Source of the DNA: Microbacterium maritypicum
GTDB lineage: Bacteria > Actinomycetota > Actinomycetes > Actinomycetales > Microbacteriaceae
Reading direction: 5' to 3'
Length of the DNA: 64,000 bases
Assembly: GCF_008868125.1 (NCBI RefSeq)
Contig: NZ_WAAQ01000002.1
Location: 434,001 to 498,000 of the forward strand
The notes under the pieces are model-generated. The model was given only the letters and a program-made list of their open reading frames with translations. It had not been told where the DNA came from and searched no databases. This document shows, one piece after another, positions 5,285-24,759 of the stretch. Each line of letters opens with the position of its first letter. Position 1 is the first letter of the stretch. The position numbers and the translations under genes were made by a program.

Positions 5285-5803
5285 ATGCGACCGCGAAATG
5301 TGATGGTGTGCGTCATGTGTGAGGCGTTCCCGATCTGGTGGCAGGACATCACGAGTCCGCCGCCTACAGAATGGGTGTACATGTTCGAAGAGTTCACCGG
5401 CGATGACACCGCGGAGGAATGGGCACTGGCTGCCGCCATCTTCATCGCGCAGACTCGACGCCGCACGGGCCTCGGTCCGACGTTCGCCGAACTCTTCACC
5501 CACCTGCTGCCCGACACCGGTGGATTGCCGGGTCCTTTCCCAGAACTCGAGTTCATGGAGCGCCGACGGGCGGTCACGGGATTTCGAGGTCACGCCGCTA
5601 TCGAGTGGCGTCGTCGAGGAATGATTAGCTTCGACAGGGCCGTGATGCGCAGTCTGCGCGTAGGGCGCGCGTTCCGTGAGCATTCTCGACTGCGGCAACA
5701 GTCCCGAGCGTCCCTAGTTGCCCGTAACGGTTCGAAGCATTCCAGACTGGTACTGCCTGAGGAACCGCTAGAGGTGGCTGACGAAACGAACGAAGGTACG
5801 TAG
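5285..5803 (+). CDS. Hypothetical protein, transposon cargo
   Basis: I do not recognise this protein. It has about 172 aa from the ATG at 5285. The frame is open upstream to a TTG at 5174, but that stretch looks non-coding, so the later start was preferred; ATG codons at 5303 and 5315 are also possible. The middle (FTGDDTAEEWALAAAIFIAQTR) looks like a folded helical domain, and EWRRRGMISFDRA is a well-formed basic segment suggestive of nucleic-acid contact. The C-terminus is low in order. It is divergent from the XRE gene and may be regulated by it. Confidence 0.5.
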   Translation: MRPRNVMVCVMCEAFPIWWQDITSPPPTEWVYMFEEFTGDDTAEEWALAAAIFIAQTRRRTGLGPTFAELFTHLLPDTGGLPGPFPELEFMERRRAVTGFRGHAAIEWRRRGMISFDRAVMRSLRVGRAFREHSRLRQQSRASLVARNGSKHSRLVLPEEPLEVADETNEGT

Positions 5804-5889
5804 GCTCCCATTGAGCCGAGGTACCCGTGAGCCACCACTAGCCCATTCGAGTCGTCTAGAGCGGAGAACGTCAATCAGGAGGGGACGAT

Positions 5890-6267
5890 ATGACTGAGGA
5901 CGCTCCGCCGGGGCTTCGGCGGATCATTGCTCGCATCGAACCTGGCTGGCCTGAGCTCATCGATGTGAGCTCCGGCTGGTACCCGCTTCTCGACCGGCTT
6001 GACAGAAAGCTCGCGGCGATCGCTCCGGGCTACGTTGTTCAGCAGGTCAAATCGAAGTTCGGCTCTCTCAGTTTTTACGCTCGGGCATCCGAAGACGTCT
6101 ACGACTACAACCAAGAGTTCAGCGAAGCCATCCTTGCCGCTGAGTGGGAGAGCACGACGACCTGCGAAGAATGCGGGGCGCCGGCGAGGACCTACACGAT
6201 CCGAATGTGGGTGTGGGCACTCTGCGCATCTCACGCCCGTGCCAAGGCCGAGGAAGCCGCCGAATGA
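5890..6267 (+). CDS. Small zinc-ribbon-like hypothetical protein
   Basis: This 125-aa protein has a strong ribosome site (AGGAGGGGA) 4 nt before its ATG. The first 85 residues form an alpha/beta domain (SGWYPLLDRLDRKL, VKSKFGSLSFYA). Near the C-terminus CEECG, followed by CASH about 20 residues later, makes a likely zinc-binding site. The family is a commonly seen unknown in bacteria and phages; I cannot give it a function. It ends convergently with the HAD gene, and both stop codons sit in one shared stem-loop. Confidence 0.75.
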   Translation: MTEDAPPGLRRIIARIEPGWPELIDVSSGWYPLLDRLDRKLAAIAPGYVVQQVKSKFGSLSFYARASEDVYDYNQEFSEAILAAEWESTTTCEECGAPARTYTIRMWVWALCASHARAKAEEAAE

Positions 6268-6294
6268 ACGCCCGCAGTGCCCGGCGGGCGTTCA
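6265..6294. terminator. Bidirectional stem-loop formed by both stop codons
   Basis: The 11-bp arms at 6265-6275 and 6284-6294 are perfectly complementary around an 8-nt loop. The left arm begins with the TGA of the zinc-ribbon gene, and the right arm ends with the TCA that is the stop of the HAD gene. A single hairpin thus serves two convergent genes. There is no clear T-run, as is common in actinobacteria. Confidence 0.7.
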
Positions 6295-6804
6295 GAGTCC
6301 GAGCTGCTCGGCTAGAAACTGATCAATTCCCCCAATATCGGCAAGGGTGACGCCCACGAACTTGTTGGGGCGGACGACCAGCGACGGGACCTCCGTCATC
6401 GCGGTTAGCCGTTGCTCAGCCTCCTCGGGAGCTTGATCGTCTACCCACACGACTGCGTTTGGGCTCGTCTGCCGGATGTACGATGTCAGGCTCGCCGTCC
6501 GCCATCCACGCTTGGGCCAGTTCTGCCAGGGCACGTACGGGCCGATGAGCTTGCCTCGCAACGGCTCGCGGATCAACCAGCCGACCTGATCACGCGGCCA
6601 CGTCGTCAGCCAGGCGACCTGCACGCCGGGTCGCTGGGCGAGGTCGTCAAGTGCGTCCACCATGTCATCGTCGACCGTCATCCAGGAGCGCCAGCCTTCA
6701 TCGTTCTGATGCGGCGCGGGCTCTTCGTCGCGGTAGATCCGGGAGATTGTGCCATCGACATCGAGCGCAAGCAGTGCAGTGCGCTGATGAGAACGCCTAT
6801 CCAC
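6292..6804 (-). CDS. HAD-like hydrolase
   Basis: This is a 170-aa haloacid-dehalogenase-like phosphatase. The catalytic motif LDVDGT has Asp15 and Asp17, a middle motif reads VAWLTTW, and VVWVDDQ near residue 120 is the acidic motif that binds magnesium. The GTG start at 6804 is chosen because AGAGG lies 9 nt upstream and because the nuclease-free frame before it is arginine-rich and unlikely to be coding. It is larger than a bare HAD core but has no cap domain that I can see. The substrate is unknown. As transposon cargo it may act in nucleotide or nucleic-acid end metabolism, which is speculation. Confidence 0.75.
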   Translation of the reverse strand: MDRRSHQRTALLALDVDGTISRIYRDEEPAPHQNDEGWRSWMTVDDDMVDALDDLAQRPGVQVAWLTTWPRDQVGWLIREPLRGKLIGPYVPWQNWPKRGWRTASLTSYIRQTSPNAVVWVDDQAPEEAEQRLTAMTEVPSLVVRPNKFVGVTLADIGGIDQFLAEQLGL

Positions 6805-7094
6805 GATCAGACACCTCTGCGCGAGTTTGCGGTGTTCGGGCTGGCCGGGTATTCGGCCGCGTTGGCGTGACGAACGGGGGCTCCGAGATGGCCATAGCGC
6901 GAGCCTAGGACCACTGTGGCTCGGGTGCGAGTCGCTCCTAGTCATGGAGTACGACGGTCGCCGCATAGGCCAGGAGGCGACAGTCATCGCGCGCAGTTGC
7001 ACGGCATCGGCAACGGCAATGGGTGCATGACTCCGTCTTCACGCGGTCTGGGGTGTTATCCCGCGGAGACGTTCCTACCCCTACGCTTAGCGCT

Positions 7095-9119
7095 ATGTCG
7101 CGGGTGAAGATCTATCCATGGGATGCAACACGCGGCCAGGCGGACCAAGAGTACGCACGCGTAATCGAACTGCACCGCAAGAACCGCACGACGCTCGGCC
7201 ATCTTCCTTTCGCCGCGTTTGAGGAGGCGGGAGCGCGGCGACGACTCATTCTCGGTACGGTCGACAATGTTGTTCAGGGCTATCTCCTCTACAGCACGCC
7301 GCGCCAGCAGACACTGAAACTTGTACATGTCTGTGTTGATGCGCTCGCACGTGGGACCGGCCTCGCCAAGGCAATGGTCAACGCAGCGATCGCTGCGAAT
7401 CTCGATCGTGCAGTGATCACCGCGCACTGTCGGTCGGACTACGACATGGACGGCTTCTGGCGATCGCTGGACATGGCGCCGACTGCTGAACGCCCTGGCA
7501 GAGCAGCTAAAGGCTCGACGCTCACGATCTGGACACGCAAGATCGGGCAACTCGACCTGCTTGAGAGCGCCCTCTACGACTCCTTGCGCCCCATCGCCGT
7601 GCTCGATTCGAACGTCGTGATTGACCTGTATGCCTCGAACCAGATGGAGCGCCCAGACCGAGAGGAGTCGAAGGGGCTGGCCGCGGACTGGTTGGTGGAT
7701 GTGGTTGAGCTCGCGGTGTCACCAGAGGTGTCCGTCGAAGTCAATCATTTGGAACCGCCCGTCGAACGGCAACGGGTGCAACGCAGTCTCCAGGGACTGG
7801 TCGCGCTGCGACGACGCGAGACAATGAGGCCGCTCGCAGCAGAGTTCGTCGCGCGCATGTCTACCGCGGCGATACAGCGAGACTCCAGCCTCCGAAATGA
7901 CGCTAAACACCTCGCGGACGCCGTGCTTGCTGGTGCCGACTACTTTGTTACACGGGACGAGAGCTTTCTCGCAGCCACGGCGGAGTGGGCGCGAGAACAG
8001 TACGCCATCGACGTGCTCCGTCCAGTGGATTTGCTTCGTGCGTTTATCCCCCCGTCCGCGCCGACTGAGTTCCGCTCTGGGCAGTTGGAATCGGCCGGCC
8101 TGCGCTGGCAGCCCGTAGATCAAGTCACCGCGGATCTAGAAGACGAGTTTGTCGACATCCGCAACGGCGAGAAGGGGACAGTGTTCCGGAAGCAGCTTCG
8201 TGCGGTGCTTGCGAGACCGGCCACGGCGCGCCTTGAGGTTCTCCTCGATGATCGCGGGCGGCGTTGGGCTCTTCTCGGAACGGAATCTACCGACGATACG
8301 CTCCGCGTTTCGGTGATGCGGGTCGCGCGAGGTTCGCTCGGCGGAACTATCGCCTTCCAACTGACTAGGTACCTCCGTGCCCTGGCGTTGGAGCGAGCCG
8401 CGGGCGCCGTGTCGATCGTGGAAGGGGCTCTGAACCCGGTGTTGCGAGCCGCACTTGTCACCGACGGCTTCCAATCCGAGCCACCTACCGCCCGGCTTGC
8501 ACGCCACCCGGATCCGTCACAGACCGCCTCCCTTACCACCCCGGCGGAAGTGACGGAGTATGAGCGACGGCACTGGCCGCAACTCCTGCTTGGGACGGAT
8601 GTCCCCGTGAGGGTCGTGCCGATCCAGCCGCGCTATGCCCGCGAACTCCTTGGCTTCAACGACACTCTTATCCAGGTCCGTGATCGACCCGCCCTTGGGC
8701 TCGCTCGCGAGTTCGTGTACTTCGCGGCGCCAAAGATGAAACACTGGGAGATCCCAACCCGGGTGCTGTGGTATGTCACCAAGGACCCGACTGCCCCTGA
8801 ACACCGCGCAGTTCGCGCCGTCGTCGCACACTCTCGTGTGGTCGACGCCGAAGTGATGCATGTGCAGGACGCAGTTGACCGGTACCGAACCCTGGGGGTC
8901 CTCCGGGGCGGGGAGATCCAAGGGCACGCAAAAGACGGGAAGGTGCTGGTGCTGAGATTCGAGGACACACACGTGCTTGACGCGCCGCTGGGGCGAAAAT
9001 CACTCGATGCGCTACTACGCAAGCACGGTGTCACCACCTCACTCATCACGACACGCACTGGAACACCCGGGCTCTTCGATGACGTCATTCGAACTCAGGC
9101 TGGATGGGAGGGACGATGA
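7095..9119 (+). CDS. GNAT acetyltransferase-PIN nuclease fusion protein
   Basis: This is a 674-aa multidomain protein. Residues 1-150 resemble a GNAT acetyltransferase, with ARGTGLAKAM as the acetyl-CoA loop. Residues 165-320 form a PIN ribonuclease domain with the expected acidic set: Asp171 (VLDSN), Glu215, Asp275 and Asp288 (TRDESF). The C-terminal half contains a second acetyltransferase-like fold around residues 370-470 and an unassigned region. ATG 7095 was chosen over an upstream ATG at 7023 because the domain begins here. Its stop overlaps the ASCH gene start (ATGA), so the two are coupled. All four PIN residues are intact. The likely job is RNA cleavage, perhaps of tRNA or modified RNA. 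Confidence 0.8.
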   Translation: MSRVKIYPWDATRGQADQEYARVIELHRKNRTTLGHLPFAAFEEAGARRRLILGTVDNVVQGYLLYSTPRQQTLKLVHVCVDALARGTGLAKAMVNAAIAANLDRAVITAHCRSDYDMDGFWRSLDMAPTAERPGRAAKGSTLTIWTRKIGQLDLLESALYDSLRPIAVLDSNVVIDLYASNQMERPDREESKGLAADWLVDVVELAVSPEVSVEVNHLEPPVERQRVQRSLQGLVALRRRETMRPLAAEFVARMSTAAIQRDSSLRNDAKHLADAVLAGADYFVTRDESFLAATAEWAREQYAIDVLRPVDLLRAFIPPSAPTEFRSGQLESAGLRWQPVDQVTADLEDEFVDIRNGEKGTVFRKQLRAVLARPATARLEVLLDDRGRRWALLGTESTDDTLRVSVMRVARGSLGGTIAFQLTRYLRALALERAAGAVSIVEGALNPVLRAALVTDGFQSEPPTARLARHPDPSQTASLTTPAEVTEYERRHWPQLLLGTDVPVRVVPIQPRYARELLGFNDTLIQVRDRPALGLAREFVYFAAPKMKHWEIPTRVLWYVTKDPTAPEHRAVRAVVAHSRVVDAEVMHVQDAVDRYRTLGVLRGGEIQGHAKDGKVLVLRFEDTHVLDAPLGRKSLDALLRKHGVTTSLITTRTGTPGLFDDVIRTQAGWEGR

Positions 9120-9550
9120 CCCGCGCTCTGTTCCTGTCGATAAAGCCGCGGTACGCGAGGTCAATCCTCGAAGGACGCAAGACGGTCGAAGTCAGACGCA
9201 AGTTCCCCGACCTCCCCGCCGGCACAACCATCGTGCTTTACTCGAGCTCGCCGGAGCGTGCGATCGTGGGCACGGTGCGCCTCAAGCAGGCAAGCAAACT
9301 GCCACCAGACCGTGTCTGGGAGCTGCACTCGGACGCGATCGATATCGCAGAAGAGGCCCTCGGTGAATACCTCGAAGGCGCTGACGCCTCCACCCTTCTC
9401 GAAGTTGAGCACCCGAGAGCGTGGGAGCGGCCAGTCTCCCTCGCTTCGCTCCGAGCTCTGCTGGGATTTGGGCCCCCACAGAGCTTCCGCTACCTCGATT
9501 CACTGCAGGTCGAGCTGATCGCCAGCAGCGGTTCGTCCGAAACCTACTGA
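9116..9550 (+). CDS. ASCH-domain protein
   Basis: This 144-aa protein begins with the signature of the ASCH fold, related to PUA RNA-binding domains: LSIKPRYARSIL at residues 7-18, then KTVEVRR at 22-28. The domain fills most of the protein. ASCH proteins bind RNA or modified nucleosides, and a few are hydrolases of modified cytidine. A GGGAGG ribosome site and the 4-bp overlap with the GNAT-PIN gene indicate co-translation. The partners plausibly act on the same RNA, with ASCH as recognition or antidote module and PIN as effector; that link is inference. Confidence 0.8.
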   Translation: MTRALFLSIKPRYARSILEGRKTVEVRRKFPDLPAGTTIVLYSSSPERAIVGTVRLKQASKLPPDRVWELHSDAIDIAEEALGEYLEGADASTLLEVEHPRAWERPVSLASLRALLGFGPPQSFRYLDSLQVELIASSGSSETY

Positions 9551-9645
9551 CGTCAGCGGAGCAGGCGGGCTTCTCGGCGTTCGGCGTTGATGGGCACCAC
9601 CGTGTATACGCGTCGTTGTCCTAGGGTCGCGGTATCGTCACCAAC

Positions 9646-10281
9646 GTGGATATCGACAACGCCCTGAACGAGCTTCGATGGAACGGGTGGACCACGGTGA
9701 CAGGGAAACCGATCGAACTTACGACTGCGTTGATCATCAATGGTTACTCGAGGGCGGCAACGCAACGTGGCGCGACGCGGCAGACCTTAAAGCCCGTTTC
9801 GAAGAGTGATGCGCCGCGTCTCACGATGAGTGCTCAAGTCGGCTTCGGCGCACAACCCCTGCACACCGACGGCGCACATCTCAGGGAACCACCCGACGTC
9901 ATCGCTCTCTATTCCGCGGAGCCCAACAACACACCGACGTACGTGTGGTCAGCGACAACAAAGAACGGGACGCCCTGGCATCCCGAGTTCGCCCAGTTCG
10001 GCTTGTTCACCGTCCGCAACGGGAGAAACTCTTTCCTCGCGGCTGCCGCCGAGGGGGCGACCGTTCGCTTCGATCCAACGTGCATGAGCCCCGCAGACGG
10101 GTACGCGCGGCAGGCAGCGGAGCATTTCTCGAGTCTCAAGCCGGTGGCGCATCATTGGGATGAAGCGGACACGATCCTTCTCATCGACAACCGGCATTGC
10201 CTACACGCCCGGGGCGAGGTCTCCGCGGGAGACGCTGAGCGTGTGTTAGAACGACGCACCTTCCAGTGGAGCCGGCCATGA
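9646..10281 (+). CDS. TauD-like Fe(II)/2-oxoglutarate dioxygenase
   Basis: This 211-aa protein resembles the TauD/TfdA oxygenase fold. HTDGAH gives the metal-binding His73 and Asp75, and LIDNRHCLHARG near the C-terminus supplies the distal His (His187) and a following Arg region for 2-oxoglutarate. It is shorter than TauD itself (about 280 aa). The start is GTG at 9646 with little ribosome site, so the message may be leaderless. Its stop overlaps the next gene (ATGA). The substrate is unknown. Such enzymes hydroxylate small molecules, amino acids or nucleic-acid bases. Confidence 0.75.
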   Translation: MDIDNALNELRWNGWTTVTGKPIELTTALIINGYSRAATQRGATRQTLKPVSKSDAPRLTMSAQVGFGAQPLHTDGAHLREPPDVIALYSAEPNNTPTYVWSATTKNGTPWHPEFAQFGLFTVRNGRNSFLAAAAEGATVRFDPTCMSPADGYARQAAEHFSSLKPVAHHWDEADTILLIDNRHCLHARGEVSAGDAERVLERRTFQWSRP

Positions 10282-11195
10282 CGCGATTGATGCCATATGA
10301 CAGCGAAGGGCTGTGGCTCAAGAGCAGGCTCTTCATCAACCGTGCCATGGACGCCGCTGTCGAGTTTGAGGAAGCAGCCTTCTGGGCATGTTGTGCGCTC
10401 GAGCTGCTGGGCAAGAGCGCGCTCTCTCGAGTCAGTCCCTTACTGATCGCACTCCCAACGGACGACGGCACTAGCCTGCTCGTCGCGAGTGGTGCGGTCG
10501 AAGGTGCCGATAGCTTCGTCACGATTCAGGCGAAAGCGGTGTGGGCGCGCTGTGGTCGAGCGTTCAAGCAGTTCAACGTCCCGGAGGCGAAAGTGCTCTC
10601 GCTCGGCAGGAATGCATACATCCATTCGGCGGATATTGGCTTCGACGTCATTCCTCCGGCAGACTGGTGGCCACGGTTCTGGGCCCTCGCTCACGTACTC
10701 ATTGCTCACTGTGACAAGGTCGTGGAGGACTACGTCGGGGCGGCGCGCGCCGTTGTGGTCGAGGAGCATTTGGAGACGAACAGAGCCAATCGGGATCGAC
10801 GGCTGAAGTCCCTGATCGAGAACGCGCAACTGCGTCTTCGTCTGCACCTGTCGAACAGTATGGCGGGACGTATGCAGATCGACTGGGATCGATTCGAGAA
10901 CACCGCCAGTGGCTGGAGTTATCGCTCTTCGCATGAATGCCCTGCTTGCGGTAATGGGGCTGATATCGGAGGCGAAGAGATCCTGGATCGCGAGCTCGTG
11001 CGAGCGTCCTACGATGACCCAGATCCGCACGTCACCCTAGTCATTGCTACGGAGGAACTAGCCTGCGAATCCTGTCACCTTATCCTTGGCGAAGCAGATC
11101 TTCTTGAGCGGGCCGAAGTCGATCTTTCGTTTGAGGCAGAAGGATCCCTGGAGGACGTCGCCGAGCTGTTCGAAGAGGAGTACAACAATGAGTGA
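10278..11195 (+). CDS. Hypothetical protein with C-terminal zinc ribbon
   Basis: This 305-aa protein is coupled by a 4-bp overlap to the dioxygenase gene. The first 190 residues are helical (FEEAAFWACCALELLGKSAL) and resemble the helical domains seen in unknown proteins of defence and mobile regions. At about residues 218-265, CPACG and CESC form a split zinc ribbon. The C-terminus is acidic (EDVAELFEEEYNNE). I cannot name a family. It most likely works with the dioxygenase, for example by binding its substrate. Confidence 0.7.
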   Translation: MTRLMPYDSEGLWLKSRLFINRAMDAAVEFEEAAFWACCALELLGKSALSRVSPLLIALPTDDGTSLLVASGAVEGADSFVTIQAKAVWARCGRAFKQFNVPEAKVLSLGRNAYIHSADIGFDVIPPADWWPRFWALAHVLIAHCDKVVEDYVGAARAVVVEEHLETNRANRDRRLKSLIENAQLRLRLHLSNSMAGRMQIDWDRFENTASGWSYRSSHECPACGNGADIGGEEILDRELVRASYDDPDPHVTLVIATEELACESCHLILGEADLLERAEVDLSFEAEGSLEDVAELFEEEYNNE

Positions 11196-11595
11196 GTCTC
11201 GGAGCGCGCGCACACGTTGACCTCGCCCGGTTTGGACGACGACGCTCCTTCGCTCAATCCGGTGCTTTTCTGATCATCGAGGACGTCGAGACCTTCTTCG
11301 CGATAGCCCGTGCGGCCAGATACTTCTCGGTGAAGATGTGCGGGCGCTTGGGCTTCGTGGCTCCCCATGGCGTCGAGTCTTTCAGAGCCTCGTAGCGCTA
11401 CTCTGCCGATCGCAGAAGACAAGGCTCTACGAAGAGCGCTGAAATGATTACCAGCTTGACTGGTCGTTGCTGCGGACTCGCAGGGACCTCCAGGCAGAAC
11501 AGTTTCAGCATCGCGCGCCCGCGTCGGTCTCCGGCAGTTTCGGGAGAAGGGTATCTTCACGCGCTCGGCGCGAATCGCGGAATTCGAGGGAACTC
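11196..11595. other. Intergenic stretch, mostly unexplained
   Basis: These 400 bp have no convincing gene. On the minus strand, about 11250-11395 reads in an open frame of some 46 residues with protein-like composition (KPKRPHIFTEKYLAARAIAKK), bounded by stops and lacking a good start, so it may be the tail of a lost gene. The remainder shows nothing I recognise apart from a ribosome-site-like GAGGG just before the nuclease gene. Confidence 0.3.
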
Positions 11596-13170
11596 GTGGT
11601 CCCGATCCGCACCCGCACCCAGGTCTTAGCGAGAATCAATCGAGCTCTCGGGCGGAAGGGGGGACCCATACGCACCGCGGGAGCCTCACTCGCTACGCTT
11701 ACTCGGGACGAGCGCTGGGCTGACGACGCTCGTCTGATTGATTGGAGGCACATGCTTGTTCTTGGGGTCAACGCTGACGATAAGGGTGCGCAGCTGGAGG
11801 CGCTCGTGCGAACGATCTTGCGCGGCCAGGGCTTCGAGGACGTCCGCCTTAATGTGATTCGTGCTGGGGGAAACGAGCTCGACATTGTGGCGAACCTTTC
11901 GACGCAGGTTGCAAATTCCACGCACCGAACGCCGTTGGTCGGTGAGGCGAAGGCCTACGCGACCCCGATCAACATGCCGATGTGGCAGCGATTTCTTGGA
12001 AAGGTGTTCATCGAGCGCCTCAGTGCCCCGCAAACGATCGGCGTGATGATCGCTTTGAATGGAGTCAATGGGAACGTCTACGGCAGTTACCGGACCCTTC
12101 AGGAACACTCCATAATGCTCCTAGTCGGAGACGACCTCATCGAACATGCGCTCTCCACATCCGAGATCTCACCTATGGCGGTGGCAAGAGAGAATGTGAA
12201 GCAGCAGTTCAGGGCCGAGCCGATCGACCTTGACATTGCCTACTATGGCGGTGCCTACAGATGGGTTGTTCGATGGTCGGTGGACAGTTACTCGGTGGTC
12301 GACGGTCATGGGCATCTGCTTTCGTCAGAGGCACTAGAGAGTCTTCGGGGGGCGCTCCTAAGCGAAGTCAGCGGCGAACTGACGGCGACTGAGGAGGCGC
12401 TGGCGCTAGCGGAGGTGTTGCATGACGTGCATGTTGAAACCATCGGAAGGCTTCTCTCGGGAGAAGTTGTACTGACGAGCGCGCAGGGCAACGAGGAGAT
12501 CCATCAATGGCTCGCGCAACGGCCGTACTGTCGTCTCGACCATGATCGCCTGACGCTGATTGACCCAACCGACCTTGACGCTCAAGGGGTCTCAAGCTTG
12601 TTCCTTGACCTATTCGAGAACAAGGTAAGCGTGCGACGATTGCAGTTTATGGTCGATGGACATCACTTGCCGTATCTCACTCGCATGATAGAACTGCTCC
12701 CCGATCTCCAGGAAGGTTTCGCCCTCGCAGCCGAAGACCGGGCCAAGTTACTCAGCATCTCGGCACCGTTTCCATCTGCCTGGGTTGCTATCGCCCGTCC
12801 CAACCCATTGATCACGGTGCACCGCGCGGACGAGACGGAAGCGCCAGACGCTAACGTGGAAGCTTCAGATCTTTCGGCCTTCTGGGAATCAGTATCCGGT
12901 GCGATTCGCGCTGATTTCAGCAACCCGATGTTACGAGGATTCCTCTACGACCATCTCGGGGTGGCGGAGATTGAGCAGGCCACCTCATATCGATACAAGT
13001 CCAAGACGAGTGTCCTTGGAGAACTGGAGATCCTCGTTCGCGACAAGATCGGGCGACTGGAGGATGGCCTCGCGGGGGAGGCCGGTACGCGCCACCTGCT
13101 CATTCGAGCACTGGCTTCAGCTCCAGAGCCCTGGGATCACGATCATCCTGAACCGCTACCGCTCACATGA
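11596..13170 (+). CDS. PD-(D/E)XK nuclease-like protein
   Basis: This 524-aa protein carries a restriction-endonuclease-like core at residues 60-150. GNELDIVA contains Asp96, and VGEAKAY contains Glu117 and Lys119, which is the PD-(D/E)XK metal site of Mrr-like nucleases. A helix KGAQLEALVRTIL precedes it, as expected. The remaining 370 residues are unassigned alpha/beta sequence. The start is GTG 11596, preceded by GAGGG 5 nt upstream; an ATG at 11752 is an alternative that keeps the core. No methyltransferase or helicase is adjacent, so it is not a normal restriction system. It may be a standalone defence nuclease carried as cargo. Confidence 0.75.
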   Translation: MVPIRTRTQVLARINRALGRKGGPIRTAGASLATLTRDERWADDARLIDWRHMLVLGVNADDKGAQLEALVRTILRGQGFEDVRLNVIRAGGNELDIVANLSTQVANSTHRTPLVGEAKAYATPINMPMWQRFLGKVFIERLSAPQTIGVMIALNGVNGNVYGSYRTLQEHSIMLLVGDDLIEHALSTSEISPMAVARENVKQQFRAEPIDLDIAYYGGAYRWVVRWSVDSYSVVDGHGHLLSSEALESLRGALLSEVSGELTATEEALALAEVLHDVHVETIGRLLSGEVVLTSAQGNEEIHQWLAQRPYCRLDHDRLTLIDPTDLDAQGVSSLFLDLFENKVSVRRLQFMVDGHHLPYLTRMIELLPDLQEGFALAAEDRAKLLSISAPFPSAWVAIARPNPLITVHRADETEAPDANVEASDLSAFWESVSGAIRADFSNPMLRGFLYDHLGVAEIEQATSYRYKSKTSVLGELEILVRDKIGRLEDGLAGEAGTRHLLIRALASAPEPWDHDHPEPLPLT

Positions 13171-13397
13171 TGATCCGAGGTGAGCCTGGTGGGGTCAGAC
13201 GGAGAAATATCTGCTCGTTACGACGGAAGTGGATACGGACTTTTGCTCATAGTAGTGAGGGGGGACCCGAACCTCGCAACAGCAGCTGAATACGACCGCT
13301 CTCTCGTGCTGAAAGTCTGATAACTCTCTTGAGACGAACCGCCTCGTGAGCCGCACGTGACCGACGCGGAATTCTGCGGCAGTCGTGTCTCGCGTCA

Positions 13398-13422
13398 TGA
13401 CAACTGTCGTGAGATCGGACAA
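13398..13422 (-). repeat. Terminal repeat, right end of the upstream element
   Basis: Read on the minus strand it begins TTGTCCGATCTCACGA, the same 16 nt that begin the end at 37210. The next bases (CAGTTGTC) diverge slightly. It marks the end of the tni-carrying element. Confidence 0.65.
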
Positions 13423-13447
13423 TTGTCGTTTCTCACGAAACCTGTCG
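13423..13447 (+). repeat. Terminal repeat, left end of the metal island
   Basis: It begins TTGTCGTTTCTCACGAAA and continues with CCTGTCG. It matches the reverse complement of 37186-37210 at 21 of 25 positions by hand alignment. It starts on the base after the neighbouring end. Confidence 0.65.
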
Positions 13448-13639
13448 CTGTTCTCATGAAAGGTGGCGGATTCTCGCGGATGTTGTCACACGGTCTTCCG
13501 GGATCGACACCTGTGTCAGCAACGCCGAGGTCGCCTACACATCAACTAGCTCTGGAGAAGCGTCGGAAGCGGCAAGCGATTTCGACAGTGCGGTGGCGTG
13601 GTTCGGCGGACGCATAGGGGATCTGCGTACAGTGCGAAT

Positions 13640-14257
13640 GTGCCTCGAGACCCACGCTTTCGTACCGTTCGTGGTGCGGCGGGAATCATGCTCGCTGCGG
13701 TGTTCGCGATCGGTCTGAGCGGGTGTGCGCCGGATCCGGTCAGCGATTCCTTCCTCAAGGGTGAGAACACCGGGTATGTGGCGGCCGACGGCGCGATCGT
13801 CGAGATCCCGATCGCCGAGCGGAGCGAACCGGTCGCCTTCAGCGGCATCACTGAAACTGGTGATGATTTCGACAGTGCGGACAACGCCGGCAAGGTCACG
13901 GTGGTGAACTTCTGGTACGCGGGGTGCGCGCCGTGCCGCATCGAGGCGAAGGATCTCGAAAGCGTTTGGCAGGAATACGGCGGCGAGGATGTAGCTTTCA
14001 TCGGCATCAACACCCGCGACCAGGCCGACACTGCCCTAGCTTTCTCTGACGAGTTCGGCATCACCTACCCGAGCCTGATCGACGTGAACACGGCCGAGGC
14101 GAAACTCGCTTTCTCCGAGGCTGTGCCGATCCAGGCGACGCCGACGACTCTCGTGCTCGACAGACAGGGCCGTGTCGCCGCCCGCATCATCGGACCCATC
14201 GACGGCACCTCGATCCTTTCGACGCTCGTCAAGGACGCCCTAGCGGAGACACCGTGA
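13640..14257 (+). CDS. TlpA/ResA-like thioredoxin lipoprotein
   Basis: This 205-aa extracytoplasmic thiol-disulfide oxidoreductase has a signal peptide (residues 10-30) ending in the lipobox LSGC, so it is probably lipid-anchored. Its redox motif is NFWYAGCAPCR (CAPC), and it has the cis-proline segment QATPTT. GTG 13640 was chosen because TACAGT lies 6 nt before it as a -10 element, pointing to a leaderless message; the frame continues upstream to 13598. The ccdA gene follows with a GTGA overlap, and CcdA supplies electrons to such proteins. Together they maintain reduced cysteines for cytochrome or copper-protein assembly. Confidence 0.85.
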   Translation: MPRDPRFRTVRGAAGIMLAAVFAIGLSGCAPDPVSDSFLKGENTGYVAADGAIVEIPIAERSEPVAFSGITETGDDFDSADNAGKVTVVNFWYAGCAPCRIEAKDLESVWQEYGGEDVAFIGINTRDQADTALAFSDEFGITYPSLIDVNTAEAKLAFSEAVPIQATPTTLVLDRQGRVAARIIGPIDGTSILSTLVKDALAETP

Positions 14258-15015
14258 ACGCCGACTCCATCATCGGGTCCGGTGCGCTTTGGCTCGCAGT
14301 CCCCGTCGCGATGCTTGCTGGCCTCGTGTCGTTCTTGTCGCCCTGCGTGCTCCCGCTGGTCCCCGGCTACCTCGGCTTCCTCGGCGGAGCGGTCGCGCCG
14401 CGGACGAAGGGGGACGCGACGAACGCAGTCGCGCCTGAGCGCCGTCAGCTCGTGGTTGGCGTGCTGCTGTTCATCCTCGGCTTCAGTGTCGTATTTGTTC
14501 TCATTACTGCGCTGGGCGGGACGGCCGGCGTGTTCTTCCTGCGCTGGGGTGACCTGGTCACGCGTATCCTCGGCGCCGTCGTCATCCTGATGGGGCTTGT
14601 CTTCCTCGGGGTGTTCAGTTTCGCCCAGCGGGAGGTCCGCTTCCACGTCGGCTCCCGGGCCGGGGTCGTCGGGGCGCCGCTACTTGGAGTGGCACTCGGT
14701 ATCGGCTGGGCGCCGTGTATGGGTCCGACGCTTGCCGCGATCATCGCGCTTTCGTTCAACGCCGGCGACCCTGTCCGGGCTGGCTTCCTCGGCCTCGCGT
14801 ATTCGCTCGGCCTGGGCATCCCGTTCCTGTTGGTCGCGTTCGGGTTCGGTTGGGCGGCGAAGACGGTCGAGTTTCTCCGCCATCACATCCGGGTGCTGAA
14901 TGTTTGCGGCGGTATCCTGCTGATCGTCCTCGGCCTCCTGATGGTGACCGGGCTGTGGACCGACATCATGTCGCGGCTGACGGCGGTGATGGGCAGCGTC
15001 ATCCTCCCTCTCTGA
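14254..15015 (+). CDS. ccdA: CcdA-type thiol-disulfide transmembrane transporter
   Basis: This 253-aa membrane protein passes reducing power from cytoplasmic thioredoxin across the membrane. It shows about six membrane segments and the paired motifs SFLSPCVLPLVPGY and GIGWAPCMGPT, whose cysteines form the redox couple. The GTG start overlaps the stop of the TlpA-like gene, its likely substrate. Length and motifs are typical for CcdA. In this island it most likely supports maturation of extracytoplasmic redox or copper proteins. Confidence 0.9.
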   Translation: MNADSIIGSGALWLAVPVAMLAGLVSFLSPCVLPLVPGYLGFLGGAVAPRTKGDATNAVAPERRQLVVGVLLFILGFSVVFVLITALGGTAGVFFLRWGDLVTRILGAVVILMGLVFLGVFSFAQREVRFHVGSRAGVVGAPLLGVALGIGWAPCMGPTLAAIIALSFNAGDPVRAGFLGLAYSLGLGIPFLLVAFGFGWAAKTVEFLRHHIRVLNVCGGILLIVLGLLMVTGLWTDIMSRLTAVMGSVILPL

Positions 15016-15016
15016 G

Positions 15017-15075
15017 ATCCCTAGCAGGGATGTCCGCGAGTGACGACTGGAGCAGTCCTCTCTACCCGACTGCTC
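15017..15075. terminator. Two stem-loops between convergent genes
   Basis: ATCCCT-AGC-AGGGAT at 15017-15031 lies directly after the ccdA stop. A second hairpin with 8-bp arms GAGCAGTC/GACTGCTC occupies 15050-15075. They separate ccdA from the convergent peptidase gene and are likely terminators for both strands. Confidence 0.6.
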
Positions 15076-15113
15076 ATTTCGACGGCGCCACTTCGTGATC
15101 CCGTTTCGGAGCC

Positions 15114-16472
15114 TTAGATGTAGACGCCGCGGTCTTCCATGAATCGGACGGGGTTGGTGTAACCACCGTTGATGTACACCTCGAAATGCAGATGGCAACC
15201 GAAGGATCGGCCGGTGTCGCCGGCGTAGGCGATGACCTGGCCGGAATTGACCCACTGCCCTCGACCGACGGCGATGCCACCGGGTTTGATGTGGGCGTAA
15301 CCGGTGCTGACCCCTCCGCCGTGTTGGATGCGGACGTAGTTGCCGTAGTTGCCGTTGGCGCCGGCGTAGTCCACGGTTCCGGAGTTGGCGGCGTAGATCG
15401 CCGCTCCGCAGCCGTTGGCCATGTCCGCGCCGTAGTGGTAGCTCGAGGAGCAGCCCTGCGACCCGCAGATGGGGGTCCGCGGGCCGTAGCTTGAACTTCG
15501 GCCGCCTCCGTGGGGTCGAACCCAGCCGCCGCTCCCGGCGGAGCCTCCGCCGCCACCGTTGCCGCCTCCGTTGGCTGCGGCTTCGGCGGCTTCACGTTCG
15601 CGACGGGCTCGCTCTTCGGCCGCGCGTGCGGCTACACCCGCCTGGTAGCCAGCGACTGTCTGCGTGGTGGTGTCTTTCAGCGCGGCGAGCTGCGCCTGCA
15701 TCGTCTCGAGGTTCGCGGCTTGCTCGTCGAGCGCGGCTTGCGCGGCGTCGGCTGCTTCTTGTGCGGCAATCATCTTCTGCTCTGCGACCTGCTGTAGTCG
15801 GTCCCGTTCGTCGCGGGCGACCGTGGCCTGATCGGTCAGCGATTGGGCGGTGTTGCGCGCCGAGATTGCGTCATCGTAGACCGACCGGTTGTACTCGAGC
15901 AGCTTGTCCATGGTGCCCAGCCGGGACAGGAGCTCATCGGCGTTGTCCGCGGAACCGGAGAAGAACAGTTGCAGTGCTGAATCGTCTCCACCGTTGCGGT
16001 ACAGCTGTGCCGCAACTTGACCGGCCCTGCGGGCCGAGGTTTCGGCAATCGCTGATTGTTCGTCCGCCTGCGCCTGCAGGCTCTCGGCTTCCGTGATCGC
16101 AGCGAAGTATTCCTGTTGTGCTGCGTAGAACTCGTCGGAGGCTGTGTCAGCGGCAGCCTGGGTCTCGGCGACTTTCTGCGTCAAGGATTGGATCAGCCCT
16201 TCGATCCGGGTGATCTCGGCGGCCTTGGCAGCTTCGTTGCTCTTGGCGCGTTGGACATCGTCCCAGCTCGGGTAGGACGCAGCGTGCGCCGCTGAGACGC
16301 CGGAGCCGATACCGAATGCAGCGAATGCAGCGACGCCGAGCGCGCCGAGTCCAAAAGCGCCACGTCGAGTCACACTCAGCTTCCAGAATGAGTCGCGTTC
16401 GGCGGGCGTGGGTGCACACCCGCATTCTTCAGCCGCCTCCGTAGCAGCCGCGGAGACGCGTCGTTCGTTCAC
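15114..16472 (-). CDS. M23-family peptidoglycan peptidase with coiled coil
   Basis: This secreted cell-wall endopeptidase has 452 aa. The signal region has a twin-arginine motif (TRRGAF) and a hydrophobic stretch ending in AHA near residue 70. Residues 75-310 are a long coiled coil, a glycine-rich linker follows, and the C-terminal 120 residues form the LytM/M23 domain with HYGADMA and HLHFEVY, which supply the zinc ligands and catalytic His. GTG 16472 has a strong GAGGAGAGGG upstream; the frame extends to 16622 without better support. It resembles NlpD/RipA-like hydrolases. It is last in the long minus-strand block, and its link with copper is unclear. Confidence 0.85.
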   Translation of the reverse strand: MNERRVSAAATEAAEECGCAPTPAERDSFWKLSVTRRGAFGLGALGVAAFAAFGIGSGVSAAHAASYPSWDDVQRAKSNEAAKAAEITRIEGLIQSLTQKVAETQAAADTASDEFYAAQQEYFAAITEAESLQAQADEQSAIAETSARRAGQVAAQLYRNGGDDSALQLFFSGSADNADELLSRLGTMDKLLEYNRSVYDDAISARNTAQSLTDQATVARDERDRLQQVAEQKMIAAQEAADAAQAALDEQAANLETMQAQLAALKDTTTQTVAGYQAGVAARAAEERARREREAAEAAANGGGNGGGGGSAGSGGWVRPHGGGRSSSYGPRTPICGSQGCSSSYHYGADMANGCGAAIYAANSGTVDYAGANGNYGNYVRIQHGGGVSTGYAHIKPGGIAVGRGQWVNSGQVIAYAGDTGRSFGCHLHFEVYINGGYTNPVRFMEDRGVYI

Positions 16473-16665
16473 TGTGCCCTCTCCTCGAGCTCGGCTTCGT
16501 GGATTCTGCTGCCATGGGCGTGCAGATTGGCCATGCTCGCGTTGCCCGCCGTCTGGTCTATCGTCCGTTCGTGGGGGCCGAAGTCGCGCCGACTCGCCCG
16601 TGATCTCTGATCTGTGGCCCATATCTGACGCATCGAACTTGAGTTCGACTGCCCTGACACGAAGC

Positions 16666-17349
16666 TCACGCTTTCGGGTCCGTGTGGCCGTCGGCGCTCA
16701 ACCGGTTGTGTTTTTTCTTCTTCACTTGCCGTACAACAACGGTGGCGGTGATCACCGCGGCACCTATGACAGCAACGGCGATGATGAGCGGGATCGCGAT
16801 CGAAGCCACCTCGTCCTCGCCTGCGGATACCACCGGGGCAGGTGTGTCCGCTGCTGGCGGTTCGGTGGTTGGCGCGGCGGAGGGCGACGCCTTTGCCGGT
16901 TGGATCCGTGATTGTTCGTTCCCGCATGCTGGTTTGTCCCATCCCAGCCCTGGCTCGATGCCGGTGGGAGCGTACGTGAACGTGAAGCTCTCGGATATGG
17001 GGTGACCGTCGCTGGAGACGGCGTTCCACAGCACGGTGTAGACGCCCGGTTCCCCGAGTGCGACCGGGGTGGTGAGGATATTGCGGTCGATGGTGGAGCA
17101 GCTGGATTCGTAGAAGAGGCCGTCGGGTCCTTGCACTTGGGCGAAGCTGGCCTGGCTGAAGTCAATGAGTTCCCCGCTGAACGTGAGAGCGACGTCGTCA
17201 AGTTGGGTGACGGTTTCGTCTGCCCCGGGCACGGTGTCCAGGAGGTTGTCGTGCGCGAGAGCTGCGGGGGCCGGTGCGGCCACGATTCCCAGTGTGATGA
17301 GGGCTAGAAGTGTGCTGGCGAGCCAGCGGGTGCGGTGGGTGGAGGTCAC
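16666..17349 (-). CDS. copC: CopC-domain copper resistance protein (copy 1)
   Basis: This 227-aa protein has an N-terminal signal peptide ending in ALA, after which the mature chain starts with His (HDNLL), the copper ligand of CopC. A CopC beta-barrel follows to about residue 125 and includes SSDGHPIS with the second His. A proline-rich linker and a single membrane helix (residues 185-208) tether it, and the tail is lysine-rich. Its start overlaps the CopD stop by 4 bp. It binds periplasmic copper and likely hands it to CopD. Confidence 0.9.
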   Translation of the reverse strand: MTSTHRTRWLASTLLALITLGIVAAPAPAALAHDNLLDTVPGADETVTQLDDVALTFSGELIDFSQASFAQVQGPDGLFYESSCSTIDRNILTTPVALGEPGVYTVLWNAVSSDGHPISESFTFTYAPTGIEPGLGWDKPACGNEQSRIQPAKASPSAAPTTEPPAADTPAPVVSAGEDEVASIAIPLIIAVAVIGAAVITATVVVRQVKKKKHNRLSADGHTDPKA

Positions 17350-19244
17350 AGGTGCGGGTCCTTTCGTACGGTGGGCACGGGGGTGCTACCGGTAGGTCGG
17401 TTGTTGCGTTTCGTGTGGAGGACGGAGAAGCCGGTGAGGATTGCGAGCGTTCCGGCGATCATCAAGGTGGCGCCTCCGGCGAGGGCCTGGTCCTGGAGAG
17501 GGGTGGGTCCCCACGTCCGCCCCATGGCGCCAAACCACTCCGCGACGATGAGGTCGGAGCGAGTGCTAGTGGCGATGCCGAAGAACGCTGCCACGCCTGT
17601 GAGTGCAGTGAGTGAAGCCCACCGCCACCGCCCCTCGGGACTCGTGGACGCGTTCAGGGAAAGCGATCGCACGAAGAGGCACCCGGTGACGAGGAGCTGG
17701 CTGATCATCCATTCCGCTCCGAGCTGGTCGTAGAGCGACCATCGGAACAGGTCGGAGTAGTGGAACAACCACAGCGACGTGGCGAAAAGAGCCGCGGAGA
17801 CGACGGGGCGCAGAGTAAATCTGGCCAGCGGGCTGTGGGCGGCCCAGAGAAGCCATTCGCGCGGTCCTCGGCTTCCATCGTCCCGTGGATGGATGACCAA
17901 GGTTGCGAGGGTGATCGGCGTCGCGAAGACAAGGAGCAAGGGGATCGCGAGACTGAGGAGAGCGAAGGAGAGGAATCGCATACTGATGAGCGCGTCGTCG
18001 TAGGCTGCGATCGGCCCACTGGTCGTCCACAGAAGCGCCCCCATCCCCGCAATCCAGCTGATCGTCCGCCTGGCTGTCCACGGATACCCGCGGCGCCGTG
18101 CGCGTCGGACGCCGACGAGGTAGAAGACGATTCCGAAACCCGCGACGAGCACCCAGAGGAGGTCGGGGCTCCACGCCGTGAACCATCTCTGCAGGGTGAG
18201 TTCGATCGGGACGGGTGCGTCGGTGAGGATCTCTGCGGCGGTGGTCTGCGGGAGTGTGATCGTGTCGGCGGGGGCGGCGGTGCGGGCGAGGGCGGCGGCG
18301 GCCCCGCTCGCGATACCCATGAAACCGAGTTCGACGCTCACGATCATCCAGAAGGCGCCACGGCCCTCGTTGGCCTTTGCGATGAGTCGACGGCGGTAGG
18401 CGGCACCCAGGACGCCCATGACCAGAAGAGCGCCGATCTTTGTGAGAAGGATGATGCCGTACGGTGAGGCCAACTCCTCCCACCGGCCGAGGGCAGTGAG
18501 CGCCCGCACATATCCCGAGACGGCGACGCCGATGAACGCGATGAGTGCCACCGTCGAGTACCGGCGGAGCAGGTTCTCGAGTTCGTGCGGAGAGCTGATC
18601 GGTCGCGCGACGACGAGCAGGATGAGACCTCCGAGCCATATTGCCGCTGAAATGACGTGCAGGACGAGGGACATGACCGCGGGATCGTGGTTGGCGAGCT
18701 CACCCGAATGGCCTTGGGTGGCCATGGGTATCAGGCTGATGATCGCGAGCACGGTTGTGATCAGCACCGCCCCATAGCTGCGTACAGCGAATGCGAGGAC
18801 TGTCACGACCGAGGCGAGGATCGCGGTGATGAGCCATGATCGTCCCAGCTCGGTGTCGAGGAGGAAGCGGCCGAGCTGCGTGCCGAACTCGGCGCTCAGG
18901 CTCACTTGCGGATTGAATGAGGACAGGAAGGTGAGGAAAGCCACCACCCCGCTTGCGATGGTGAGGATGGCGGCGGCGGCGGAGGCTATATCGAGCGCGA
19001 CGGTGAACGGTTTCTCTCCCAAGGGGAGAGCGAACACCGCCAGCACCAGAGGCCCGAGCATCGCCGCACCGGAAAGATTGACGAACAGCTTCGCGGCTGG
19101 GAGTCCCCATCGCACGAGCGCTCCAGGGTCACTGGTGAGTCTCGGTGCAGCTCCTCCACCGATCGCAAGCCCGACCACCACCGCGATGAGTGCGGCGACA
19201 ACGAGAATCGTCGGCCCAACGATCCGGAGAACGACGGGATTCAT
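17346..19244 (-). CDS. copD: CopD-CtaG fusion membrane protein
   Basis: This 632-aa membrane protein combines an N-terminal CopD copper-import-like domain (about residues 1-320) with a C-terminal CtaG/caa3 cytochrome oxidase assembly domain (from about 330). This fusion is typical of actinobacteria. I count around fifteen hydrophobic helices. It likely moves copper across the membrane to copper enzymes such as cytochrome oxidase. The gene overlaps copC by 4 bp downstream and the DUF3515 gene by 4 bp upstream, so the three are coupled. Confidence 0.9.
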   Translation of the reverse strand: MNPVVLRIVGPTILVVAALIAVVVGLAIGGGAAPRLTSDPGALVRWGLPAAKLFVNLSGAAMLGPLVLAVFALPLGEKPFTVALDIASAAAAILTIASGVVAFLTFLSSFNPQVSLSAEFGTQLGRFLLDTELGRSWLITAILASVVTVLAFAVRSYGAVLITTVLAIISLIPMATQGHSGELANHDPAVMSLVLHVISAAIWLGGLILLVVARPISSPHELENLLRRYSTVALIAFIGVAVSGYVRALTALGRWEELASPYGIILLTKIGALLVMGVLGAAYRRRLIAKANEGRGAFWMIVSVELGFMGIASGAAAALARTAAPADTITLPQTTAAEILTDAPVPIELTLQRWFTAWSPDLLWVLVAGFGIVFYLVGVRRARRRGYPWTARRTISWIAGMGALLWTTSGPIAAYDDALISMRFLSFALLSLAIPLLLVFATPITLATLVIHPRDDGSRGPREWLLWAAHSPLARFTLRPVVSAALFATSLWLFHYSDLFRWSLYDQLGAEWMISQLLVTGCLFVRSLSLNASTSPEGRWRWASLTALTGVAAFFGIATSTRSDLIVAEWFGAMGRTWGPTPLQDQALAGGATLMIAGTLAILTGFSVLHTKRNNRPTGSTPVPTVRKDPHL

Positions 19245-19744
19245 GGAGCGGTGTCTCCCGTCTCAGCGTCCGCGACGTCTGGGTCTTCGGTCACAGGCGC
19301 CGTGCATTCACCGGTCTTGGGGAGTTGCTGGATCGCTCCGGCGAGAGATTCAAGAACCGCGTCTGCAGACAGGGTGGTCGTGTCTACGTACACCTGGGCA
19401 GCTGGATCTCGGCCGTAGGTTGTGAGCCGCAGATTCGGGGTCTCCTCCTCGTCGACGATCCAGTCGACGCCCCCCAAGCTGACACATTGCAGCGTGGTGG
19501 GGGCCGGGGGCTCCACCCCGCAGGTGAGGAGCACGCTGCTGGGGGTGCCCCATGCTGCGGTGGCCTGAGCGTCCGTCCAGACGCGAGCCTGGTCGCCAAT
19601 CGAGTCCGGTAGGCGTACGGCGACCTCTGCGCACAGCGGGTCATTCGCGTTTGCTGCGGGCTCGAGGTGGACGGTGGGTGCGCAGCTGCTGAGTAGAAGC
19701 AGTGCGCACAGTGCCGCGACGGAGGTCAGAATCTTGAGTTTCAC
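19241..19744 (-). CDS. DUF3515 lipoprotein
   Basis: This is a 167-aa lipoprotein. The hydrophobic signal ends in the lipobox LSSC. The mature part has the pattern of DUF3515 (CAEVAVRLPDSIG, AWGTPSSVLLTCG and GVDWIVDEEE), a family of unknown function found across actinobacteria. GTG 19744 overlaps the lnt stop by 4 bp and was preferred; an ATG at 19756 in the same frame is possible. It lies between lnt and copD, and lipidation would be carried out by enzymes encoded in the same operon. Confidence 0.8.
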   Translation of the reverse strand: MKLKILTSVAALCALLLLSSCAPTVHLEPAANANDPLCAEVAVRLPDSIGDQARVWTDAQATAAWGTPSSVLLTCGVEPPAPTTLQCVSLGGVDWIVDEEETPNLRLTTYGRDPAAQVYVDTTTLSADAVLESLAGAIQQLPKTGECTAPVTEDPDVADAETGDTAP

Positions 19745-21345
19745 AACTTCGTCCATCCGTCTTCTGGGGAGTCAGCATCCGCTGGCCGCTGTCGGATCGA
19801 CATGACGAGCAGCGCCAGTACGGTTCCGGTACTGAGCGTCCAGCCGAGCCAGGGCATCAAAACGACAGCGAGGGTCGTGCCGGTGTGGAGGGGGACCTCG
19901 GTGATCTTCGCCGCGGTCGTGTCCACCGCAACCTGAGCCAACACCTGCCCGTCGCTGCCGATGACTTGACTGGTCCCGGTGGTGGAGACGTTCACGGCAG
20001 TTCTCCCTGTTTCGATCGCGCGCATGCGGGCGATGGCCAGCTGTTGGAGGTTCTCGTCGGTGCCTCTGAAGTCCGCGTTGTTGGTTTGAAACACGAACAT
20101 CTGCGCGCCAGAGGCCGCGCTTTGGTGGATGACGTCGTCGTAGATGACGTCGAAACATATCGCCAGACCGATGGGCACATCGCCAACATTCACGAGGGGC
20201 GTGTTGGAGCCGGGCGTGTACTCCCGTTGTATCAATCCGATGAGGTCGGGGGCGATCGCTTCGTAGAACCAACGGTCCGGGACGTATTCGCCGAAAGGGA
20301 CGGGGTTGGCCTTGTCGTGGAGCTGCTGCGGCCCGGCGCTCGTCCACAGCATCGAGGTGTTGAACGTGTCGGCTCCACGAGTGGTCGCCGCATTCACCAG
20401 CGCCGGAGCGCCAGCACCCTGCACGAGTCGATCAAGGCGGCCTGCGACGGCGACATCGCGCAGGGGATCGGCGTCGACGGACCCTTCCGGCCAGACGATG
20501 AGGTCCATTTCACGCCCCAGAAGAGGAGCGGTCGCTTCTTCCTGCGCGCGCAGGATGTCACCTGTTGTCCTGGTGTCGAAGTAGCCGCTGGGCCCGTTGC
20601 CCTGCACCCATCCGACGCGCATCATTCCCGCTTGCTCGGTGGGGAACAGAGGGACGGCTATCGCGGCAACGACGATGACTGCCGCTGCTGCTGCTGGCTC
20701 CCATCGACGGAGGATGAGGGCCTCCACGACGCTCGCGCAGACGAGAACCGTCAGGAAGGACAGCCCGGTGGTCCCCACCCATGATGCGGCCTCCGCGAGC
20801 GGGCTCTCGGCAAGGCTGAAACCGACGCGCGCCCACGGGAACCCGGTGTATGGCGTACTCCCCATCAGCGTTTCCCGCAGCACCCACACCCCGGCGACGA
20901 GCACGGGAGTGATCGCGCGATACCCGTGTCGCGCCCGGGTGGTGGCGACACGATAGGCGAGTGCGATCAGTGCGCCGCCGGCACCGAATAGCAGGGATTC
21001 CAAGCCAGCCAGCGCGACCCACGGGATGGGCCCCAGATACCGTGAAACCCATACCAGGTGGGTGAAGTAGAAGGTCGCGCCGTAGACGAGGGAGATCAGG
21101 AACGCCTTGGGGAGAGAACGTCCGCGGAGCGTCCACAGCCCGATGGTGACGCTTACGAACGTGGCAGGCCACCACCCGTTTGCGGGGTAGCCGAGATCCA
21201 GCATTCCTCCTGCGATGGCGGACGCGACGATCGCTACGGGGAAGGGCGCCGCGGCTGGCAGGCGCGCGTTGTGCTCTCTGGGGTTGCCGCGCTTTGATTG
21301 GACGGAGAGGGCGTGTCTCACCAGCGGGTCAGCGGTCACGGTCAT
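19741..21345 (-). CDS. lnt: Apolipoprotein N-acyltransferase
   Basis: This 534-aa enzyme adds the third acyl chain to lipoproteins. The N-terminal 220 residues hold about six membrane helices. The nitrilase-like domain follows with the catalytic triad visible in VWPEGS (Glu), LHDKANPVPFGEYVP (Lys) and ICFDVIYDD (Cys). Its start overlaps the ctaG-like gene by 17 bp and its stop overlaps the DUF3515 gene. It sits in the same block as lspA, an unusual grouping of lipoprotein maturation with copper handling. Length is normal. Confidence 0.9.
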   Translation of the reverse strand: MTVTADPLVRHALSVQSKRGNPREHNARLPAAAPFPVAIVASAIAGGMLDLGYPANGWWPATFVSVTIGLWTLRGRSLPKAFLISLVYGATFYFTHLVWVSRYLGPIPWVALAGLESLLFGAGGALIALAYRVATTRARHGYRAITPVLVAGVWVLRETLMGSTPYTGFPWARVGFSLAESPLAEAASWVGTTGLSFLTVLVCASVVEALILRRWEPAAAAAVIVVAAIAVPLFPTEQAGMMRVGWVQGNGPSGYFDTRTTGDILRAQEEATAPLLGREMDLIVWPEGSVDADPLRDVAVAGRLDRLVQGAGAPALVNAATTRGADTFNTSMLWTSAGPQQLHDKANPVPFGEYVPDRWFYEAIAPDLIGLIQREYTPGSNTPLVNVGDVPIGLAICFDVIYDDVIHQSAASGAQMFVFQTNNADFRGTDENLQQLAIARMRAIETGRTAVNVSTTGTSQVIGSDGQVLAQVAVDTTAAKITEVPLHTGTTLAVVLMPWLGWTLSTGTVLALLVMSIRQRPADADSPEDGWTKL

Positions 21346-24750: not shown

Positions 24751-24759
24751 GGTGCTCCT

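Follow-up and report, generated by a model that had tools for sequence, protein, structure and literature searches.

Two tandem Tn7-like modules in Microbacterium maritypicum appear to have fused and then moved as a single transposon

In this study we find that two transposon ends lying head to head in a 64,000-bp stretch of Microbacterium maritypicum DNA (the window, G000:C2:434001-498000) are internal to a 38,320-bp Tn7-like transposon made of two modules, A with the transposition genes and B with a metal island (Table 1). Judging from the sequence comparisons below, this composite very probably arose by accretion of one module beside another, followed by en bloc movement of the tandem by its outermost ends.

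Table 1. Features of the composite; positions are those of the window, or of locus L009 for features upstream of it
Feature	Position	Strand	Evidence or remark
Small-RNA-like gene	L009:5716-5845	-	about 45-175 bp upstream of the outer left end
Left target duplication copy, ACGGC	L009:5885-5889		flank comparison
Outer left end of composite	L009:5890		upstream of window; one-mismatch genome scan
tnsA-like	L009:6144-6881		upstream of window; NF033179 TnsA_like_Actin 167.5 bits (cut-off 110); PF08722
tniA (TnsB-like DDE transposase), 618 aa	28..1884	+	Mu-transpos_C above cut-off; rve sub-threshold
tniB (TnsC-like AAA ATPase), 342 aa	1881..2909	+	PF05621 TniB, PF13401 AAA_22
tniQ-like 1	2666..3808	+	PF06527 TniQ above cut-off
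tniQ-like 2	3811..4953	+	PF06527 sub-threshold; 31% to tniQ-like 1 over 178 aa
Module A cargo	4950..13170		HAD, GNAT, ASCH, TauD-like, unknown ORFs
Internal right end, module A	13319..13421	-	terminal site 13407-13421, decayed inner site 13319-13336
Seam spacer AT	13422..13423		2 bp; end position set by target duplications
Internal left end, module B	13424..13490	+	TGTC...TCTCA(C/T)GA repeat array, type TGTCGTTT
Module B cargo	13598..36927		copper/cadmium island and related envelope genes
Outer right end of composite	37107..37209	-	terminal site 37195-37209, intact inner site 37107-37124
Right target duplication copy, ACGGC	37210..37214		flank comparison

Results

Four ends and one target duplication

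The sequence TGTCNNNTCTCACGA occurs exactly three times in the window, at 13407-13421 (-), 13424-13438 (+) and 37195-37209 (-), against 0.01 copies expected from shuffles, and a one-mismatch scan of the whole genome (C2:432889/90) located a fourth end, TGTCCGATCTCACGAAAAG, at G000:C2:432890, 1,111 bp upstream of the first base of the window. Along the DNA the ends follow in the order left (L009:5890), right (13421), left (13424) and right (37209). A nested insertion predicts left-left-right-right and was rejected on the left-right-left-right order found. Left and right are used here as drawn; the formal names would be swapped under the convention, described in the accessible text of PMC11406308, by which the right end is the one that lies upstream of the transposition genes. 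From the sequence alone, the sites in every end form an array with a spacing of about 19-21 bp, and in the right ends a conserved inner site lies 85 bp inwards.

A perfect 5-bp target duplication, ACGGC, flanks both outer ends of the composite. Taken alone, module A (14,532 bp) has the unequal flanks ACGGC and ATTGT, and module B (23,786 bp) the unequal flanks ACAAT and ACGGC. Since a single duplication surrounds the whole and the modules' own flanks are unequal, the unit inserted at this site was the full 38,320 bp. The element ends were set as TGT...ACA because the outer flanking 5-mers are identical only with that choice; ends starting TTGTC were rejected, since a C precedes the outer left end and only TGT makes the outer 5-mers match. 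The seam reads GGACA-AT-TGTCG. The initial annotation had placed the head-to-head ends correctly, TGTCNNNTCTCACGA being present three times in the window, and its match of the right end at 13422 with the far end at 37210 over 16 nt is confirmed, and its reading of two elements placed back to back is supported. Its claim that the ends share one junction with no spacer fails, since the leading T belongs to the flank and AT separates the ends. The left end, described as the inverted partner of the right end, is so only in part, the island's left end being TGTCGTTT and the other three ends TGTCCGAT.

Genes of the two modules

The rve match of TniA scored 30.2 bits, just under the cut-off of 32.6. 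The true start of the first tniQ-like gene, whose ORF overlaps tniB, probably lies near 2909, and the two consecutive tniQ-like genes (2666-4953) may serve two target pathways. The module A cargo is present whole in G467 and in part in G657, and the other close relatives have mostly different DNA there. It includes a 567-aa protein (11467-13170) with a sub-threshold Mrr-type nuclease match as well as GNAT and ASCH proteins (7023-9550), which are possibly products of defence genes. A resolvase domain was found in none of the subset of module A ORFs scanned. A second, distant TniA-like gene (30%) of the same genome, at G000:C3:367668-369155, is a possible source of transposase in trans.

Module B encodes a redoxin, a CcdA/DsbD-like protein, an M23 peptidase, two CopC proteins, CopD/CtaG, CtaG, Lnt, a CDF transporter, a DsbA-like protein, a P-type ATPase, a CadD-like protein and LspA. 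The five core proteins had no tblastn match (E 1e-4) in module B of this genome, which bears out the earlier view that the seam has the tni module on one side and, on the other, a metal island lacking tni genes. The first 8 kb of module B had no near match on plasmids, and a distant search with 10001-17500 gave gene-level matches only, none covering 80% of the query. Direct repeats of 208 bp (about 87%) inside module B, at 27279-27486 and 36199-36406, adjoin points where the match to module B breaks off in relatives; they are likely a recombination point for cargo exchange.

In G549, module B is found without module A, its left end at 24270 and its right end at 58528 of a joined stretch (34.3 kb), and no core match was detected in the 60 kb around it. 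This copy lies away from the usual site and interrupts an ORF of unknown function; its flanks, ACGCG and ACTCG, are equal at four of five bases, and no empty site for it was found in 197 genomes. The initial annotation had suggested that the island may move in trans. For its arrival here this does not hold: the whole 38 kb lies inside one target duplication, so the island came to this site in cis with the tni module. Module B may nevertheless move in trans, given that it lies apart from A in G549.

Composites in related genomes

Among 366 genus genomes TniA has matches at E <=1e-40 in 94 and at least 84% identity in 11, this genome included; G536, whose TniA is in two pieces of 87% and 71%, is counted among the 11 by the longer piece. 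We compared the loci of these 11 genomes and further, more distant ones. Seven of the 11 are composites mapped end to end, with outer flanks equal at 5/5 bases: ACGGC here, GATGT in G467, GCCAT in G657, TGTCG in G487, ATGTC in G466, TCCAC in G551 and GGCGG in G258, the last spread over three contigs that we take to be continuous. The remaining 20 inward-facing left-right spans of these composites all have unequal flanks. Those on one contig measure 38 to 64 kb, and G657 and G466 have three modules. The composite of G467 is the same as ours (96.7%) and has the same AT seam with a different duplication, so that one seam is met at two insertion points. The five-protein core occupies the left-most module here and in G467, G657, G487, G466 and G551; the sole other core match found by tblastn is a TniA-like stretch of 24% identity in the second module of G551, and in G258 there was no core match on the contigs holding the seam and the right end. 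Cargo has been exchanged among the composites between the core and the seam. Some cores look damaged, with tniB split in G487 and tniA split in G536, G544 and G589.

The other four close genomes are not proven composites. G400 has a single element with CCGAC on both sides, G470 a single element with unequal flanks (GGACT/GACTG), G556 an element cut by contig ends, and in G536 the right end was not found. Among the more distant loci, G553 holds a single element at another site with CCGGT on both sides, and the flanks in G592 (AGGGT/AAGGG) are a one-base shift apart. The end pattern did not find the right ends of G586, G496, G544 and G589 or the left ends of G514, G496, G544 and G589.

The 300 bp from 13424 have matches somewhere in 35 of the 366 genus genomes, and only 13 match rows, from 11 genomes, extend into the left-end array. 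In a collection of 84,980 species, which may lack records close to this genome, the seam pattern occurs at seven places in five genomes, all Microbacterium. The few array-reaching matches and this restriction to Microbacterium rule out the seam as a widespread intergenic repeat, a possibility that the initial annotation had itself raised. It had also allowed that relatives might carry 1-37 kb only as one unit; in fact each of the two parts is found in relatives apart from the other.

In the seven composites, TGTCCGAT starts all 16 right ends and also the outer left ends, and eight of the nine internal left ends begin TGTCGTTT, this genome and G467 sharing one; the ninth, in G657, is TGTCCGATTTC. 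The inner site scores 16-18 of 18 at the outer right ends of all seven composites and 10-16 of 18 at the nine internal right ends, a range that touches the outer one, on a scale that favours our own outer right end, from which the motif was taken, and with several rows sharing ancestry. We hypothesize that internal ends are skipped through mismatch or decay. Module B of G549 has a TGTCGTTT left end and a TGTCCGAT right end, a pair that counts against a strict mismatch rule.

Seams and insertion beside residents

We found ten distinct right-left seams, with spacers of 1, 2, 2, 2, 2, 4, 5, 7, 13 and 21 bp. The 1-bp spacer lies between G466 and its resident; 2-bp spacers occur in this genome and G467 as one seam, between G467 and its resident, in G657, and between G705 and its resident; spacers of 4, 5 and 7 bp occur in G657, G646 and G551, respectively, that of 13 bp in G258 and G466, and that of 21 bp in G487 and G466. 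Seams inside the seven composites have spacers of 2-21 bp. A new insertion near an old one should leave a spacer equal to the difference between their positions plus 5, and most spacers fit one-site insertion with small jitter, 13 and 21 being at or beyond the edge. Under a jitter model from 12 elements, the finding of 2-bp spacers in four of ten seams has a P of about 0.007; as this value is post hoc, we claim no excess of that length.

In G467, G466 and G705 the newcomer sits 1-2 bp from an older left end, and its duplication includes the first 3-4 bases of that resident end (GATGT, ATGTC and GTTGT, respectively). Our own AT seam followed by TGT is the expected trace of A inserting beside B, with ATTGT as target; the pair would have moved later. 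The second internal right end of G466 equals the outer right ends of G487 and G551 at 130/130 bases, and G466 resembles a two-module unit of the G487 kind with B joined on. G258 and G466 have the 13-bp spacer beside B in common, though the right ends on its left differ.

Two further observations concern how seams are made. In G646:C31 (L269-L270) two right ends 180 bp apart are followed by a left end, an arrangement probably left by the insertion of one module into another's right-end region. The 21-base spacer of G487 and G466 agrees over 19 bases with G612:C11:58271-58289 (L276), near a parA-like gene on a plasmid-like contig, where the stretch adjoins sequence resembling the left end at the G435 site; other matches to this spacer are a 17-base exact one in G565 and one-mismatch ones in G497 and G662. 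Plasmid searches with the surrounding sequence yielded no match. As a lead, this plasmid-like contig may be the place where the G487/G466 tandem was built.

The insertion site

In the 11 close relatives the insertions lie upstream of a small-RNA-like block that is conserved across the genus and on the minus strand has a TATACAGT-like -10, a hairpin and a strong terminator (RNAalifold on an alignment of 22 distinct block sequences). In G556 the hairpin stem is altered on both sides, the -10 and the stem change being read by eye. Rfam gave one weak match to the block, under the gathering score. A query of the neighbouring MarR-family gene plus the block matched in 57 of 59 genus genomes, often with gene and block apart, and in several genomes the block is present twice. 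The outer left end lies 119 bp from the site motif here and 113-121 bp from it across the 14 elements measured (119 bp in G705, 118 bp in G592), the insertion points differing by a few bases. The motif is also held by G514, G496 and G589, whose left ends are not fixed; the more distant G553 and G544 are without motif and flank, and G280 (L071) adjoins a similar site. In the 59 genus genomes, the flank search showed no empty site for our own element, and the right flank next to the composite had scattered gene-level matches only. The block that relatives have in this position begins near 44834, and 41745-44801 was matched in G536 only.

Discussion

We propose that a Tn7-like module A, with tnsA-like, tniA, tniB and tniQ-like genes, landed 2 bp beyond the left end of a resident module B, which is now without tni genes, and that the fused pair then moved as a single cut-and-paste transposon. 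TniA would have acted on A's left end and B's right end, skipping the two internal ends, and the TniQ and TniB proteins would have placed the unit 119 bp from the motif inside the small-RNA-like gene.

A simpler history is that A inserted next to B right here, with no joint movement of the pair afterwards. One-site insertion beside a resident does occur, as in G467, G466 and G705, and the insertion points are only a few bases apart, but such a history predicts ATTGT on both sides of A, and what we see is ACGGC on the left, ATTGT on the right and equal outer flanks. It is contradicted likewise by the same seam with a different duplication in G467 and by the flanks in all seven composites, and we regard it as very unlikely. 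It may also be argued that homologous recombination through shared right-end sequence made the mosaics and that the outer flanks stem from one older insertion. The cargo exchanged between core and seam, the 13-bp spacer that G258 and G466 share despite differing right ends, and the 208-bp repeats inside B all speak for recombination. However, recombination swaps cargo, and alone it accounts neither for right-end/left-end seams that have new spacers nor for the seven distinct outer duplications, which makes it quite unlikely as the explanation of the composites; it probably acts alongside accretion, not in its place.

In IS30- and IS21-type transposition an element's two ends become linked across a few bp, and the 2-bp spacing in four of ten seams would suit a circle or tandem-dimer junction of this kind. 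The two modules are, however, different elements, the spacers vary from 1 to 21 bp, and overlapping duplications explain three of the 1-2-bp cases, so that we consider such a junction extremely unlikely.

Accretion followed by en bloc movement could be the working of a self-accreting cargo system, although we hold this extension to be doubtful. Flush targeting would place newcomers 1-2 bp from the resident's left end, which, being of the TGTCGTTT type, would neither block insertion nor be used, and the resident's right end, of the same TGTCCGAT type as the newcomer's, would become the new outer end. Transposase-less modules would thus be collected serially, possibly on plasmids too, and delivered together to the chromosomal site. 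Insertion beside relatives suggests that target immunity does not act between diverged ends.

The composite shares with Tn7-like islands the TnsA-like, TnsB-like, TnsC-like and TniQ proteins, arrays of sites of about 20 bp, a 5-bp duplication, and a fixed offset and orientation at one attachment site, and it encodes the predicted TnsA-like endonuclease, DDE transposase with Mu-type C-terminal domain, AAA regulator and TniQ-type selector of this group. It differs from them in that the tandem, by the evidence of the target duplications, moved as one element more than once. In the accessible parts of the sources, insertion inside or next to an existing element is described as giving multiple left and right ends (PMC8649781, citing Peters 2014), other mobile elements are said to accrete in the cargo (PMC8649781), tandem tniQ/tnsD genes are reported in 1,048 loci (PMC10293859), and a 5-bp duplication and target immunity are described (PMC11406308). 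Our literature search, which covered few subscription papers and is weak evidence, found no title or abstract opening on en bloc transposition of tandem Tn7-like elements. Adjacent Tn7-like insertion is known; what may be new is repeated en bloc movement backed by target duplications.

The class name Tni (Tn402/Tn5053) used in the initial annotation fits the TniA-TniB-TniQ set, which is common to both, but it is imprecise, since a TnsA-like endonuclease gene is present here, whereas that class is marked by the lack of TnsA and by TniR resolution at res. Tn402/Tn5053 elements insert in res sites; the insertion here is beside a small-RNA-like gene. Like IS-flanked composite transposons, the present composite is a two-element unit moving as one, but its modules stand left-right, left-right in the same orientation and together form the whole unit. 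The same logic of fusing and then leaving is seen in the accretion of ICEs and IMEs and the cis-mobilisation of CIMEs, in which, as the accessible text of PMC7563491 describes, an active element joins a resident whose mobility genes have been lost, and the resulting composite leaves in one piece. Those systems use integrase att sites and conjugation, whereas here there are transposase-site arrays and 5-bp duplications; our units end in TniA-type arrays and are not flanked by integrase att sites.

Large modular Tn7-like islands are commonly ascribed to recombination and nested insertions. This locus is a sequence record of another route, in which an element would fuse with its neighbour and the two would jump together. 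Transposase-less modules, such as those with metal-resistance genes, can then spread in cis, and the seams keep a few bases of the place of fusion, so that part of an island's history becomes readable. Annotation that stops at the first pair of ends would halve such elements. As a minor observation near the ends, the palindrome GGAAACGATCGTTTCC occurs in three loci (L135, L177 and L080), lying about 135 bp away from the resident left end in G467, and a one-base variant of it lies at 36957-36972 of the window, near the outer right end.
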